From Planctomycetota bacterium (GTDB lineage Bacteria > Planctomycetota > UBA1135 > GCA-002686595), in the NCBI GenBank assembly GCA_012959525.1, contig DUDB01000080.1, positions 1 to 64,000 of the forward strand: a stretch of 64,000 nucleotides of DNA, read 5' to 3'. The position numbers and the translations under genes were made by a program. The notes beneath the pieces were generated by a model. The model was not told the origin of the DNA. It did not search any database and saw nothing but the letters and a program-made list of their open reading frames with translations. How positions within the stretch are numbered: position 1 is the first letter of the stretch; each line of letters starts with the position of its first letter. Positions 50,787 through 56,528 of this stretch are shown here, piece after piece.

Positions 50787-50929
50787 GCCGTTCTGTTGGA
50801 ACCCTGTTTCTCACGGAATAAGTGAAACCGGTGTGCAGGGGAGGCGTCTATTTGGGGTGTATCCCCAGGGGTGGCCGGGGGCCCGGAGGTGGGTGCAATC
50901 TGTTGAGGGGCCCCGTGTGCACAGTTGAG

Positions 50930-51002
50930 TCTCTACTGAGTCTCTACTGAGCCTCTACTGAGCCTCTACTGAGCCTCTACTGAGCCTCTACTGAGCCTCT
51001 AC
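50930..51002. repeat. Tandem array of an 11-base unit
   Basis: Six full copies and a partial seventh: TCTCTACTGAG twice, then CCTCTACTGAG four times, then CCTCTAC. Only the first base varies between the two versions, so the array is nearly perfect. It abuts the terminator of the minus-strand gene. The unit is far too short for CRISPR and has no spacers. Confidence 0.95.
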
Positions 51003-51084: not shown

Positions 51085-51663
51085 TCACACCGGGGGCAAC
51101 ACTTCGTCCTCCACGACGGGAGGTCCGCCACCTTTCTTGTCGTCCACCGGAATGGGGACAGGCACGTGCGCGCTGGCCAATGCCTCGTAGTCCTGCAGTC
51201 CGGAATGGGCGGCAATCAAGGCCGCTGGCAAGAGGCCCGTTACGGGCCGCTCGTGTTTCAGTTCTCCTCGCTCACTCGTCCAACCCAGGGAGAAGTTCTG
51301 GGCACTCTGGATCCAAAGGGATCCCGCGTCGGCTCGGCGGACGCTGGCGACTTCCAGGGCACCGGTGTTGCGCCAGGTGTCCGATGCCAGGGCGATGACG
51401 TCGAACAGAAGGGCATCGGCAGCGCCGCGCGGGAAGGGGTAGACCAAGGACTCGCCGGGTTCGACCCGTGCGGCGCCCGTGGCACCCAGGTCCTCATCTC
51501 CAACCACCAGAACCTGGGGCAGGGGGGAGAGGTTGTGAATGGCGAAGTGGTTCTCGTTTACCTGGATCAGCATCTCCACTTGGGCCTGCTCGAGAGCCTC
51601 GGGCAGGTCGAAGGGGGTGGGGAGTTGGCTGAAGAGGGCGGCGCAGAGGGCGGTGGTGAACAT
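51085..51663 (-). CDS. Unrecognised 192-residue protein downstream of the CHAT gene
   Basis: The start is well supported by AGGAG eight bases upstream of the ATG. I do not recognise the family. The N-terminus (MFTTALCAALFSQLPTPF) is only weakly signal-like. The middle is beta-rich with HFAIHNLSPLPQVLVVGDEDLG, RVEPGESLVYPFPRGAADALLFDVIAL and SLWIQSAQNFSLGW, which suggests an Ig-like or jelly-roll sandwich. The last 25 residues are Pro/Val/Asp-rich (VPVPIPVDDKKGGGPPVVEDEVLPPV) and look disordered. It is 123 bases after the CHAT gene and before the terminator, so it is probably the last gene of that cluster; a CHAT substrate or ligand is conceivable. Confidence 0.6.
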   Translation of the reverse strand: MFTTALCAALFSQLPTPFDLPEALEQAQVEMLIQVNENHFAIHNLSPLPQVLVVGDEDLGATGAARVEPGESLVYPFPRGAADALLFDVIALASDTWRNTGALEVASVRRADAGSLWIQSAQNFSLGWTSERGELKHERPVTGLLPAALIAAHSGLQDYEALASAHVPVPIPVDDKKGGGPPVVEDEVLPPV

Positions 51664-51786
51664 GTCTCACTCCTGCCAGCGGGTCGTTGCCCGTTGACCC
51701 CCCCGTTATCGGAATCGGCGTGGGTGCAGCTTGAGCCTCCAGTGCCAAGAAACGGAAAAACCTTCCACCTTGCCCCTCAGGGGGGA

Positions 51787-54318
51787 CTATTCGCGGCCCA
51801 TGGCCCGGAAAGCAGCCCAATCCTGGGGGCCGTGACCCAATGAGCGCAGGTGCTTGCGCGCTTCCTGAGCGGCTCCTGCAGGGGCGACCCCTGTTTCCAG
51901 GCTCTCGTGGTAGGCCAGGGCAAATGTCTGGGCCGCAGAGTCCGAAATGGGCCAGAGGGTCACTAGGAGGTTGCGAGTTCCCGCTTCCAGGAAAGCCCGT
52001 GCTACCCCGTGGGACCCTTCGGCGTCGATCGTCCGGCCCCCAGCGGTCTCGCAAGCAGCCAATACAACGAGCGGCAGCCGTGGGGCCGCACTCAAGACCT
52101 GTTCAGGGCACAGGACCTCTCCCCCAGAGAGCAGCAGTCCCACCGGTGCAAGGCGACCCTCCGCGCAACCGGGGGCGGGCACCAGATGCGTTGCCAGGTG
52201 AAGGGGACGTCCGCTCTCCATGGCAGCCTCAAGGGCGGGACGCACAAAGGCTGTGCCGGTCAGGAGGTTGGCGTCGGGGTGCATGCGCCCAAGCTGAGCG
52301 AGCTCCCGCGCCGCACCGGGTAGGAGAGCTACCCGCTCCTCGCTCCCCAGAGGGCTGCCCATCAGGTTCCAGGGAGTGTCCACCGCGAGGGGCGCCGCTG
52401 CCTCGCCCAATGGCAAGCCCGGGAGAACCAGAGGGGTTAACAGATCGTCGAGCCAGGACCCATCCACTCCGAGCAGGCTCATGGGCAGAGCCTCGAGAGG
52501 CCCGTGCAAGAGGAAGAGCGCGCGCGCACCGACCCCAGCGGATTTGAGGTGGTCGCGCAGCTCCACCGGCAACAAGGCTGCGCCGATCTCCTGCCCCAAG
52601 ACCTCCGCCCGCGGCAGGTCGCCAGCGACGACGGCCTCGCGCAGTCTGCGCACGGCTCCCTCAAGGCTGCGCCGGCCCAGAGGGCGCGAGCTGGCCCCGG
52701 CCCGTCCGCTGGCGTCCACCCAGACCACCACCGTGGAGTCGGCTCCCACCGCAAACGTCACAAGCCCCAGATCGAAGCGCGCGGCCCAGCTGAGCAACTC
52801 TTCGGACGTGATCCGTGTGTCGACGGGTCGCAGCCGACGGGATTGGTTGTCCTCGATGACCCGTGCGGCGCTGAGCGGGTCTCCCAGCTCGGCGTGCGCC
52901 CGGGCCAGCAGGGTCAGGGTGTGGATGCCCACCCACTCGCCGACAATGCTGCCCGCCTGATCTTGCACCCGTCCCGCCTTCCGCCGGCCTTCGTCCAAGG
53001 CGCTTTCCAGATAGGGCAGAGCCTGAGCCGGTTGCCCCGAAGCGAGCCAGCTCTCTCCCATGAGGGAGGCCGCTTCCACCTGACCTTGAGGGGACCAGCG
53101 GGCGCGCTGATCTGAATCCGCGAGCAGGGCGCGCACCCGGTCGGGTGCGCCTTCGGCCATGGCCAGAGCCGCTCTGGCCAGAGCATTGAACTCGCCGGCT
53201 TCGGAGCCAAGCCCTTGAACCTCACGACGTGCCGAGACCAGGTCGCCGGTGCGCAGGTAGGTCACTGCGAGCATTCCTCGCCACTGGGCTTGGTCTCCGG
53301 CGAGCTTGGGTGCATGGCTCGTTAGGAAGGCCAGCGCGGCTTCCGCGCGGTCATCGGCCAGGAGCCGTGCGGCGTGCTCCCGAGCAAGGGGCCAACTGTC
53401 GATGGGGGAGGTGAGGCTGGCCCAGGTAGCCAGATGTTCGTCCACCTCCCGCAGGTTGCCCGCATCCTTGGCTAGATCTACCAGGCCGGAGAGGGCGCGC
53501 TCCTGGTACTCGAAACGCCCGACGTCCTGGGCCAGACGCAGGCAATCTTCGAAGACCTCGCGCGCCCGTCCGTGCTCTGCGCGCGCCCGGGCCAGACGGC
53601 CGCGCAGCCAGAGTGGCTCGAGCCGCGGGGTGACCTGTCCGGCGCGTTCGAAGAGCCACAGACTGCTGTCGATGTGGCCCGATACAAGGCCGGGCAACTC
53701 CTGTCGGCGTGCGTCAGTCAGATCGAGGGCCTGTTCGAATTCATGGAGCTCGACGCGCGCCAGGAGCGCGTAACTCTGGGCGGCCGGCACCACGTCCTCA
53801 CGTCTCTCGGCCTCGGTGGCCAAGTTCTCCAGCGCCGTACACAGGGACCGGACCTCTTGGCGCCAGTCGGGATTCGGCCCAAGATTCTCCTGACTCGACT
53901 GCTCGTAATTCGCGCGGAGGGTCTGGAAGGTCTTCCGAAGCGTCAAGAATGTCCGTTCGGCTTCCAACCCGCGGGCTCGCTGACCCGGCGTGAGCCGTAA
54001 GTAGTACCGGGCCACAGCCAGGGTGTCGCAGCGAGAAAAGTCCACACACAAGCTCTCGGCCTGCTGCAGCAACTGCCTGGCGACATCTTCTTCAGCCCCT
54101 TCTCCGGCACGCAATGCAGAGAGCGTGCGGACGAATGCGGTCAATTCTCCTTGTGCCGGGTTCGCTTGTTGAGCAAAGCCTGAAGGGGTCCACGCAAGTA
54201 GGCCCACGGCCGCCAGGAAGGGCACGGTGCCAACGGCCGTTCTGCGTCTGTGCAGGGCTCGCTGCGGCCAGCCCAGTGCTCCCTGGTGGGGTTGGGTGGA
54301 CAACCGCTGCGTGGACAC
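51787..54318 (-). CDS. Exported CHAT-domain caspase-like protease with TPR-like repeats
   Basis: An 843-residue protein. The start is GTG. Residues 24-50 form a signal peptide (HRRRTAVGTVPFLAAVGLLAWTPSGFAQQ), so the protein should be exported. About 450 helical residues of TPR-like repeats follow (for example RGRLARARAEHGRAREVFEDCLRLA). The CHAT domain covers roughly 530-843: LFLLHGPLEALPMSLL, the catalytic His711 in LHLATHL and Cys756 in VVLAACETAGG, then GVARAFLEAGTRNLLVTLWPISD. The dyad is intact, so it is a predicted cysteine protease of the separase/caspase clan. It lies six bases after the anti-sigma gene. Known CHAT proteases cleave specific partners; the anti-sigma ectodomain is the obvious candidate. 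Confidence 0.88.
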   Translation of the reverse strand: MSTQRLSTQPHQGALGWPQRALHRRRTAVGTVPFLAAVGLLAWTPSGFAQQANPAQGELTAFVRTLSALRAGEGAEEDVARQLLQQAESLCVDFSRCDTLAVARYYLRLTPGQRARGLEAERTFLTLRKTFQTLRANYEQSSQENLGPNPDWRQEVRSLCTALENLATEAERREDVVPAAQSYALLARVELHEFEQALDLTDARRQELPGLVSGHIDSSLWLFERAGQVTPRLEPLWLRGRLARARAEHGRAREVFEDCLRLAQDVGRFEYQERALSGLVDLAKDAGNLREVDEHLATWASLTSPIDSWPLAREHAARLLADDRAEAALAFLTSHAPKLAGDQAQWRGMLAVTYLRTGDLVSARREVQGLGSEAGEFNALARAALAMAEGAPDRVRALLADSDQRARWSPQGQVEAASLMGESWLASGQPAQALPYLESALDEGRRKAGRVQDQAGSIVGEWVGIHTLTLLARAHAELGDPLSAARVIEDNQSRRLRPVDTRITSEELLSWAARFDLGLVTFAVGADSTVVVWVDASGRAGASSRPLGRRSLEGAVRRLREAVVAGDLPRAEVLGQEIGAALLPVELRDHLKSAGVGARALFLLHGPLEALPMSLLGVDGSWLDDLLTPLVLPGLPLGEAAAPLAVDTPWNLMGSPLGSEERVALLPGAARELAQLGRMHPDANLLTGTAFVRPALEAAMESGRPLHLATHLVPAPGCAEGRLAPVGLLLSGGEVLCPEQVLSAAPRLPLVVLAACETAGGRTIDAEGSHGVARAFLEAGTRNLLVTLWPISDSAAQTFALAYHESLETGVAPAGAAQEARKHLRSLGHGPQDWAAFRAMGRE

Positions 54319-54324
54319 GGGAAG

Positions 54325-55368
54325 CTAGCGTCCCGGGTTGGAGCCCAGGTACGAATCGCGTTCGCTGCTGGGAGGCAGGCGGCGAGCTGCCGCACGAGCA
54401 TCGGTCCAATATCCCGCCTCGTGAAGGGACCGGACGCGCTCACGCACGTCCTGCTCCTCAGTGAGGGCTTGCAGGAACGAGTCATTGTGGCGCACTTCGA
54501 AATCCCGCTCGCCCAGGGGCTGCTCCAAACCGTTAACCGTGGCGTGGGCTTCCCAGGTGTAGTGACCCACGGGCAGTATCTGACCGAGCGCCAGCTCAGG
54601 TCCGTCACCGTTGAGCTGAGTCACCCGGCTGCCCTCGGCGAAGGCACCACCCCCATGGGCTCGCAAGATGATCGTGTAGCTCTGTGCCTCGGCAACCGGG
54701 TTCACTTCGAAGAGGAGGTCCTGGTTCTCGGACGCGAGCAGCACCGGGCCGCGGGGGAAGAGGAGGCTGCCCTCGGCACTGCCGCGCAGGAGTGGGTAGG
54801 TGGGCAGATCGTACGGGGCATCCCCTCCCTGGAAGAGCATCAAGCCACCCACGAGGGCCGTCAGGGCCGCGGCAATGGGGGCCAGACGACGAAGGATGCG
54901 GATGGGCGCCGGACGGTGCCCGCCCTGCGGCATCCCCCATGACGCGGGCCGGGTCGGAAGGTCCTCGCCGGTGTCGGCCGCAGCTTGGTGGCGCACAGCC
55001 GGGGACCAGTCCAAGGGAACCGGGGGGGAAGACTCCAAGGAAATCAGGAGATCGGCGCACTCCTTGCACTCGGTCAAGTGACAGAGGACCTCATCTTGGC
55101 TCTGCGGATCGAGCGGAACGTAGCCAGGGCCCTTGGCGAAGTCGTAGAGGGTCCCCGCGGAGGGGCAACCGCCCGTGCTGGGGGTCTGGCCATCGAGCCA
55201 ATCATCCGCTGCACGAAGCATCTCCAACCGCGCGCCGTGGACGGGGTGCGCCGTGATGTTGGCGAGGCCTGCCTCGGGGAGTTCATCCCAATGGGTGAGC
55301 AATTCGATGACGTTGGGATCGTCCGGCCCGTCGGGCAGACTTCCTCTTCCTTGGTTCAGAGAGTCCAT
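54325..55368 (-). CDS. Membrane anti-sigma-like protein with a zf-HC2 zinc motif
   Basis: A 347-residue single-pass protein. The ATG at 55368 has GAGGT upstream; a GTG at 55464 overlapping the sigma stop would add 32 residues. H97-x3-C101-x2-C104 (HLTECKEC) is the zinc motif of ZAS/zf-HC2 anti-sigma domains, though it lies farther from the N-terminus than usual. One membrane span lies at 160-180. The outer part has a beta-sandwich of the Fn3 kind (FPRGPVLLASENQDLLFEV, LPVGHYTWEAHATVNG) and a helical tail (RVRSLHEAGYWTDARAAARRL). Directly after the ECF sigma gene, it is most likely its regulator, with a sensory or cleavable outer domain. Confidence 0.8.
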   Translation of the reverse strand: MDSLNQGRGSLPDGPDDPNVIELLTHWDELPEAGLANITAHPVHGARLEMLRAADDWLDGQTPSTGGCPSAGTLYDFAKGPGYVPLDPQSQDEVLCHLTECKECADLLISLESSPPVPLDWSPAVRHQAAADTGEDLPTRPASWGMPQGGHRPAPIRILRRLAPIAAALTALVGGLMLFQGGDAPYDLPTYPLLRGSAEGSLLFPRGPVLLASENQDLLFEVNPVAEAQSYTIILRAHGGGAFAEGSRVTQLNGDGPELALGQILPVGHYTWEAHATVNGLEQPLGERDFEVRHNDSFLQALTEEQDVRERVRSLHEAGYWTDARAAARRLPPSSERDSYLGSNPGR

Positions 55369-55460
55369 AGCTGACCTCGTTTCCGCAGCCCAGCCGTCAT
55401 GGGGGGCAGATTTCTTCCCAATCCTGGGAAAAGGGCTATCGGGGCGGCTGTGAGGGGCCT

Positions 55461-56039
55461 TCACTCGGTGACCCCCTCATATGCGTATTGGTTCAAGAGC
55501 ACCCTGCGCATGCTCACCACGGCTTTTCGCAGGCGGTACTTCGTCTGCTCCAGGGAGATTCCAAGGCTGCGGGAAATGGAGCCCATGGTCTGTGTATCCA
55601 CGAACCGGAGGTTCAAGAGCTCCTGCTCTTCTGGATCGAGCTGGCCCATGGCGGAGCGCACCATGTCCCCGATTTCACCGGTACCGGCGCGCTCATCGGG
55701 GCCTGGAGTTTCGTCCACCCGGTCGGGAATCTCGTCCCCCCCGCGTGCCGGGCCCGGGCGGCTACGCGCGCCCTGGCGGCGCTTGAGGTCGACGCAGCGG
55801 CACCAGGCCACGCGGTACAACCAAGTCCCAAAGGAGCCCTTGTCGGGGTCGAAGGTGCCACGGTCCAGCCGTTCAAGGGCATAGACCACCAAGTCCTGGT
55901 AGAGGTCCTCCCGTCCGTTGGGATCCGATTCGAAGTGGCCGATGCAGTGGTAGAACAGTGAACGGTAGCGCTCGAGAAATACCTTTACGGCCTCCTCTTC
56001 GCGGTCGCGTAGCCCTTTTACGATTAGATGCTCTTCCAC
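55461..56039 (-). CDS. ECF-type RNA polymerase sigma factor
   Basis: A 192-residue sigma-70 family factor with only regions 2 and 4. Region 2 has YQDLVVYALERL, FDPDKGSFGTWLYRVAWCRCVDLKRR; a charged linker follows (about 90-120); region 4 has LDPEEQELLNLRFVDTQTMGSISRSLGISLEQTKYRLRKAVVSMRRVL with the helix-turn-helix. GTG start with GGGGGGAAG upstream. It would direct polymerase to a dedicated set of promoters, usually including its own. The anti-sigma-like gene follows, with its possible GTG overlapping this stop. Confidence 0.92.
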   Translation of the reverse strand: MEEHLIVKGLRDREEEAVKVFLERYRSLFYHCIGHFESDPNGREDLYQDLVVYALERLDRGTFDPDKGSFGTWLYRVAWCRCVDLKRRQGARSRPGPARGGDEIPDRVDETPGPDERAGTGEIGDMVRSAMGQLDPEEQELLNLRFVDTQTMGSISRSLGISLEQTKYRLRKAVVSMRRVLLNQYAYEGVTE

Positions 56040-56528
56040 TGTCAGCTTCCCCCCGGGACCGACTGTGGTGCCGATTCCCTAGGACTGGGATAGGGATTTG
56101 GGAGAGGGGATGCAACTCGGTGGTTTGGGCCGAGTCTTCCCCGAGGTGAGGGATGGAAGGTCGGCTAGGCCGGTCCGTGGGTTGCAATCCTCCTCGCAGG
56201 CTGCTTAAGACCTCGTTCATTGGCCTTGGGGGCATGAACCGCGGCCCGGATACGATTCTGCGGCACTGTTCAACGAGGCAGAATCTGACCCCCAATAGGG
56301 GCGAACTTAAGCCAAATTTACACCCATCCCACCTGTCTTCGCGTCCCGGCGCGCGGTAATGTGTTGCCCCGAATTTGGCGCTCAGAGCGGACCCGGAAAC
56401 AGGCCCGAGACAGGCCCGAGACAGGCTCCGAGACAGGCTCCGAGACAGGCTCCGAGACAGGTCAGGAGGGCAGGCTGGAGCGGTCCCGGCCTCGCCGCTT
56501 GCCGTTGCCAACACACCCCCCGAATACC
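56040..56528. other. 489-base divergent regulatory region
   Basis: Lies between the sigma gene (minus) and the thiolase gene (plus) and must hold both promoters, but no clear -35/-10 or ECF-type box was found by eye. It contains the tandem repeats at 56405-56461 close to the thiolase start. No gene is seen: an upstream extension of the thiolase frame is open but encodes only a repetitive SETG-type sequence unlike any thiolase N-terminus. Confidence 0.6.
56405..56461. repeat. Tandem array of a 12-base unit upstream of the thiolase gene
   Basis: CCGAGACAGGC, then three copies of CCGAGACAGGCT, then CCGAGACAGG: five units, perfect apart from one missing base in the first. The array ends 67 bases before the thiolase ATG and could act on its leader or promoter. 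Confidence 0.9.

Follow-up and report, generated by a model that had tools for sequence, protein, structure and literature searches.

Four genes on the minus strand of a planctomycete contig probably encode a split receptor of the DdvA type, to which a secreted tail has been added. The window, i.e., the whole stretch of DNA that was analysed, comprises 64,000 nucleotides (positions 1 to 64,000 of contig DUDB01000080.1, Planctomycetota bacterium, GCA_012959525.1) and comes from a 4.0 Mb, 93%-complete metagenome assembly. The genes code for an extracytoplasmic function (ECF) sigma factor (192 aa, 55461..56039), a single-pass anti-sigma factor (379 aa from a GTG, 54325..55464), an exported protein that joins tetratricopeptide repeats (TPR) to a CHAT protease domain (843 aa, 51787..54318), and an exported protein of 192 residues, named here P192, with a beta-rich domain and a tail (51085..51663). 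For both the anti-sigma and the CHAT gene, the GTG start is tentative, with an alternative ATG at 55368 for the former. An earlier annotation of the same DNA, made from the letters alone (the sequence-only reading), had described these genes and a terminator behind them, and open reading frames and domain matches bear out the identities, the positions, and the common strand. DdvA, according to the titles of PDB entries 8ROT and 8RW5 and to PMC4374960, is the Myxococcus xanthus transmembrane anti-sigma factor of DdvS and is itself a CHAT protein. The comparison with DdvA as the closest relative, the separate promoter of P192, and the conserved C-terminal tail of P192 go beyond the sequence-only reading.

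The interpretation that we favor, although tentatively, is a two-protein receptor in which CHAT cuts the docked anti-sigma factor, the freed sigma factor transcribes P192, and the tail of P192 binds CHAT. It is proposed that sigma, anti-sigma, and CHAT would be co-produced from a primary-sigma-like promoter, and that the zinc domain of the anti-sigma factor would hold the sigma factor on the cytoplasmic side. On the outer side, as conservation and modeling suggest, the anti-sigma ectodomain would be docked on the exported TPR-CHAT protein. The TPR part would sense a cue, upon which CHAT would cut the ectodomain close to the membrane, possibly behind the invariant arginine of an LRG motif, and a general M50 site-2 protease would complete the release of the sigma factor. 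The free sigma factor would then transcribe P192 from a CTCAAG-N17/18-CGATA promoter, an assignment that conservation and co-occurrence point to, and the tail of the exported P192 would bind CHAT, most likely in the TPR groove. Such binding would somewhat sooner switch the protease off again than activate it, because none of the three genes of the sigma/anti-sigma/CHAT unit has a P192-type promoter, so that shut-off needs another product. The parts of this model differ in strength. The extracytoplasmic coupling of CHAT and anti-sigma is well supported and the cleavage of anti-sigma by CHAT is plausible, while the fully closed circuit outside the cytoplasm, in which CHAT cuts the anti-sigma, the sigma factor has one dedicated product, a secreted peptide, and the TPR part reads the C-terminal tail of that peptide and so sets or resets the switch, is rather unlikely as a whole.

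The sigma gene product matches sigma-70 region 2 (Pfam, 9.5e-11), sigma-70 region 4 (Pfam, 4.5e-9), and TIGR02937 (4.6e-21), and the presence of both regions next to an anti-sigma gene identifies it as an ECF sigma factor. The anti-sigma factor of the window has no Pfam match of its own; it carries HLTECKEC in the cytoplasmic domain (55057..55080), and 21 of 33 orthologues match zf-HC2. Orthologues keep the HxxxCxxC motif, one transmembrane helix (54832..54885, placed by hydropathy and by its constant position), a beta-rich ectodomain, and a C-terminal helical, TPR-like segment (54328..54426, LHxxGYxxDARAxARxLPxSxERDxYL...R), which is delimited by conservation and by the helices of the model. 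Matches to the full-length anti-sigma profile are confined to the family of the host, its zinc part resembles anti-sigma factors elsewhere in the phylum, and a comparison with solved structures gave a weak match to chain 3hug. Directly outside the membrane, Arg227 of an LLRG motif (54784..54786) is invariant (36/36) and offers a concrete candidate position for site-1 cleavage. Cutting after arginine is common in separases and other clan CD relatives. M50 proteases are encoded in the assembly.

The CHAT domain (PF12770 at 2.1e-30, residues 575-841, 51796..52596) is the sole CHAT match in the assembly and is preceded by an all-helical TPR-like solenoid (residues about 54-513, 52780..54159), recognized from the secondary structure of the model and a TPR_2 match. 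Residues 707-714 read HLATHLVP and residues 753-760 read LAACETAG; hence His711 (52186..52188) and Cys756 (52051..52053), which the sequence-only reading had named as an intact dyad, are correctly placed, and no aligned orthologue deviates at either position (36/36 and 35/35, respectively). Together with fold matches to separase and Csx29, the Pfam match and the dyad characterize a CHAT cysteine protease fold. The predicted N-terminal signal peptide (residues about 25-49, 54172..54246) corresponds to a hydrophobic signal peptide or anchor in nearly all orthologues, and the preservation of this export signal agrees with the earlier claim that CHAT lies outside the cytoplasm. With a cut-off of E below 1e-30, clear CHAT orthologues were found in 42 of 61 genomes searched, all from the host's family; a contig scan gave three close relatives. 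Of the 33 loci whose upstream sequence suffices for the comparison, 32 have the sigma, anti-sigma, and CHAT genes side by side in the same orientation. The adjacency that had been set beforehand as a condition for a functional link is thus conserved for these three genes, while P192, proposed earlier as the fourth gene of the row, does not share it as an operon gene, having its own promoter.

Since the anti-sigma and CHAT genes are in the same frame in the window, ectodomain and CHAT could be folded by AlphaFold as one tethered chain with the stop codon read as glycine. The model reached a mean predicted local distance difference test score (pLDDT) of 90.4 and a predicted template modeling score (pTM) of 0.89, with a disordered linker of 47 residues. 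If the ectodomain were unplaced, the pTM ceiling would be about 0.79 (the ordered CHAT part, about 795/1005 residues); CHAT alone could thus explain a pTM of only about 0.79, and the ectodomain is probably placed with confidence. The model therefore suggests that the anti-sigma ectodomain probably docks on the exported TPR-CHAT protein, in line with the physical link that the sequence-only reading had foreseen between the two. Stop-codon readthrough between the two genes was also considered and rejected: the frame is common to 14/34 loci, near the one third expected by chance. In a structure search with the tethered model, DdvA was the top PDB match (E 6e-15 over 975 columns), and Csx29 (E 3.8e-13) and separase ranked behind it; the match to DdvA likewise supports a physical link of CHAT with the anti-sigma ectodomain. 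DdvA again came first in a profile search with the CHAT domain, with catalytic His and Cys both retained.

The arrangement is not limited to orthologues. Of 37 CHAT loci in the same order that are not orthologous, 11 carry an ECF sigma gene on the CHAT strand within 4 kb. Most of those 11 encode a single-pass protein between the two genes and a CHAT protein with a signal peptide. Four of these CHAT proteins behind ECF sigma genes (L207, L236, L240, L245) carry a C-terminal transmembrane anchor besides the signal peptide, which places them outside the cytoplasmic membrane. In two non-orthologous loci, the putative anti-sigma ectodomain itself terminates in TPRs. These loci and the comparison with DdvA suggest that the pairing of an extracytoplasmic CHAT with an anti-sigma factor is a recurrent bacterial design separate from CRISPR. 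The independent, non-CRISPR use of the CHAT/sigma pairing assumed in the sequence-only reading is upheld by the same gene order in these loci and by the lack of a Cas1 match in the assembly. A locus from another family of the order (L211:4210-8947) encodes an anti-sigma factor, an exported CHAT, and an exported protein that resembles the beta domain of P192 and is devoid of the conserved tail.

P192 homologues occur in 38 of 42 genomes with the CHAT locus versus none of 19 others (p 3e-12), apart from a weak match to the tail only in one genome without a CHAT locus. The protein has no Pfam, PDB, or confident Foldseek match to a known fold or family; its model (pLDDT 86) consists of a beta-rich domain and a disordered tail (pLDDT about 60). 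The tail, HVPVPIPVDDKKGGGPPVVEDEVLPPV-COOH (51088..51168), follows the pattern HVPVxTPx...PPxxExxPLPPV-COOH and is kept to the final residue in most homologues. A profile of the tail finds one gene per genome, rare weak extras aside, and the idea of a general export tag was rejected on this ground. One genus includes two genomes whose P192 has shrunk to a signal peptide and the tail (64 and 59 aa); a promoter of the P192 type still precedes the gene, and tail and promoter thus form the conserved core. Several genomes have P192 some kilobases away from CHAT, in one case beyond a gene on the opposite strand, and one genome has the two on different contigs. The separate promoter and these unlinked positions indicate that P192 is not simply a fourth operon gene.

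The promoter of P192 in the window (CTCAAG-N18-CGATA, 51707..51735) is of ECF type, occurs once where 0.04 matches are expected, and is kept in 35/35 relatives, with CTCAAG-N17/18-CGATA as the consensus form. The loose pattern [CT]T[CA]AAG-N15..18-CGA[TAC], with the next ATG 9 to 58 bases further on, was composed after viewing the sequences and is found in 35/35 non-redundant P192 cases, against 0.45 expected from shuffles run with the identical pattern and 0/35 upstream of sigma genes. It is retained even where P192 is kilobases from CHAT or on another contig. This conservation and the co-occurrence of P192 with the CHAT locus suggest that the sigma factor of the locus may drive the P192 promoter. 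The predicted promoter of the sigma/anti-sigma/CHAT unit, read from the sequence, is primary-sigma-like (TTGCAT-N17-TATCCC, 56087..56115), and TTGMA-N17..19-TATnY is present in 15/33 orthologous upstream regions and in none of the shuffles. A GGAAGGTTTTTCC element (51754..51766) precedes the -35 box of P192 by about 18 bases; similar inverted GGAA...TTTTCC elements are seen in 14/35 relatives (shuffle mean 1.6), mostly at a distance of 18-20 bases from the box, and could be the site of a second regulator or an UP element. A wider regulon was rejected, as the genome has 7 matches to the promoter pattern versus 5 for the reversed control; in relatives the pattern does exceed this control, but it does so in families that lack the system as well, which makes codon bias the probable cause. 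A P192-like promoter, CTCAAG-N17-CGATA, at G000:C51:91548-91575 (L108) is kept in all three genomes of its genus and precedes a possible glycoside hydrolase gene, a possible second target.

Several observations weigh against the two-protein receptor as favored here. The docking is read from one pTM value of a tethered single chain; the promoter is assigned to this sigma factor by co-occurrence in a genome with 26 matches to sigma region 2; with no excess of the promoter pattern elsewhere in the genome, the regulon may be a single gene; and the tail is variable in a few genera. Proteolysis may even be dispensable, because DdvA unites anti-sigma and CHAT in one protein. The last point leads to a receptor that does not cut, in which CHAT and the ectodomain form a stable sensor complex and a ligand-induced change of shape frees the sigma factor from an uncut inhibitor. 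Both the nature of the closest solved structure, a transmembrane anti-sigma factor that is itself a CHAT protein, and the confident docking in the tethered model speak for it; however, His and Cys are invariant in all covering orthologues and retained by DdvA, although a pure scaffold would not need them, and we regard this explanation as unlikely. Less probable still is a positive feedback in which CHAT, on the producing cell or on its neighbors, is activated by the secreted tail peptide in a self-amplifying or quorum-like manner. The only conserved predicted target that was found is indeed a secreted, tail-bearing product, but nothing indicates its release to the medium, and the P192-type promoter is found at 0/35 of the sigma, anti-sigma, and CHAT genes, which argues against classical self-amplification.

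A further proposal makes P192 the substrate: CHAT would mature it and free the tail as an extracellular peptide, with the anti-sigma factor controlled otherwise. What suits this proposal is that the tail is linear, disordered, and near-invariant, can stand almost by itself, and belongs to a protein whose gene co-occurs with CHAT. We nevertheless consider it quite improbable, as CHAT belongs to the sigma/anti-sigma unit, whereas P192 is transcribed on its own and sometimes unlinked, and the minimal P192 would free its tail with signal peptidase alone. That the locus is a membrane-outside member of the type III-E CRISPR module CASP can be dismissed almost entirely: Csx29 is a fold match and CASP also couples CHAT with an ECF sigma factor (PMC10028731), but DdvA matches better, PADLOC gave no match, and the export of CHAT and the missing CRISPR components (no Cas1 match in the assembly) refute membership.

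Other features of the window surround the locus. The terminator announced past P192 (51003..51044, minus strand) was overlooked by a simple scan and recovered by folding as a hairpin of -30.9 kcal/mol (z -6.8) with a T-run on its 3' side. Directly past it, at about 50925-51000, lies a tandem repeat of ~12 bases (TAGAGGCTCAG-like, ~seven copies). Opposite-strand neighbors, two M16 peptidase-family genes and a thiolase gene, are unrelated to the locus; directly upstream of the thiolase gene, short direct repeats, GGAGCCTGTCTC (minus strand), are located at about 56410-56465.

CHAT proteins are common in bacteria, and their substrate and place of action have been established for few. The locus offers a candidate substrate, a docking partner, a predicted promoter, and a candidate peptide ligand, each of them conserved across one Planctomycetota family, so that a possible action of CHAT as a site-1 protease becomes directly testable. 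If the proposal is true, an outside signal may be turned into gene expression via a protease in an uncultured planctomycete family. The search of the literature, with subscription papers and preprints outside it, turned up no account of either a split anti-sigma/CHAT pair or the tailed protein.

Among known systems, the type III-E CASP (Cas7-11, Csx29, Csx30, CASP-sigma) pairs CHAT with an ECF sigma factor, is RNA-guided, and cuts Csx30 intracellularly (PMC10028731). Common to both is a TPR-CHAT protease adjoining an ECF sigma factor and its inhibitor, whereas the present locus has an exported CHAT and a membrane-bound inhibitor, and Cas1, sought in the 93%-complete assembly, was not found; identity as a defense system was likewise rejected on the PADLOC search, which returned no match. 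The locus resembles Sigma-E/RseA/DegS/RseP in its single-pass anti-sigma factor, in a candidate site-1 protease on the outside, in the occurrence of M50 proteases in the same genome, and in a conserved C-terminus that is exported and might act as a cue; the difference is that the candidate here is a CHAT cysteine protease with TPRs and not a PDZ serine protease. For ECF54 sigma factors, section 3.3 of the review PMC8999054 describes CHAT proteins in a conserved genetic context, no anti-sigma factor, and a proposed proteolytic control, in contrast to the zinc-finger anti-sigma gene present here and in 32/33 loci. The closest likeness is to DdvA. A transmembrane anti-sigma factor is joined to a CHAT module in both, and both retain His and Cys; the present system has a cytoplasmic zinc-type domain, as DdvA's own inhibitor domain presumably is, followed by a single membrane pass, with ectodomain, TPR, and CHAT predicted outside. 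The anti-sigma profile gives no sequence match to DdvA. DdvA is one polypeptide, whereas here, in the window as well as in relatives, a stop codon keeps the two genes apart, which makes the locus a variant of the DdvA-type receptor rather than a member, and the tailed protein P192 with its own promoter is an addition found here.

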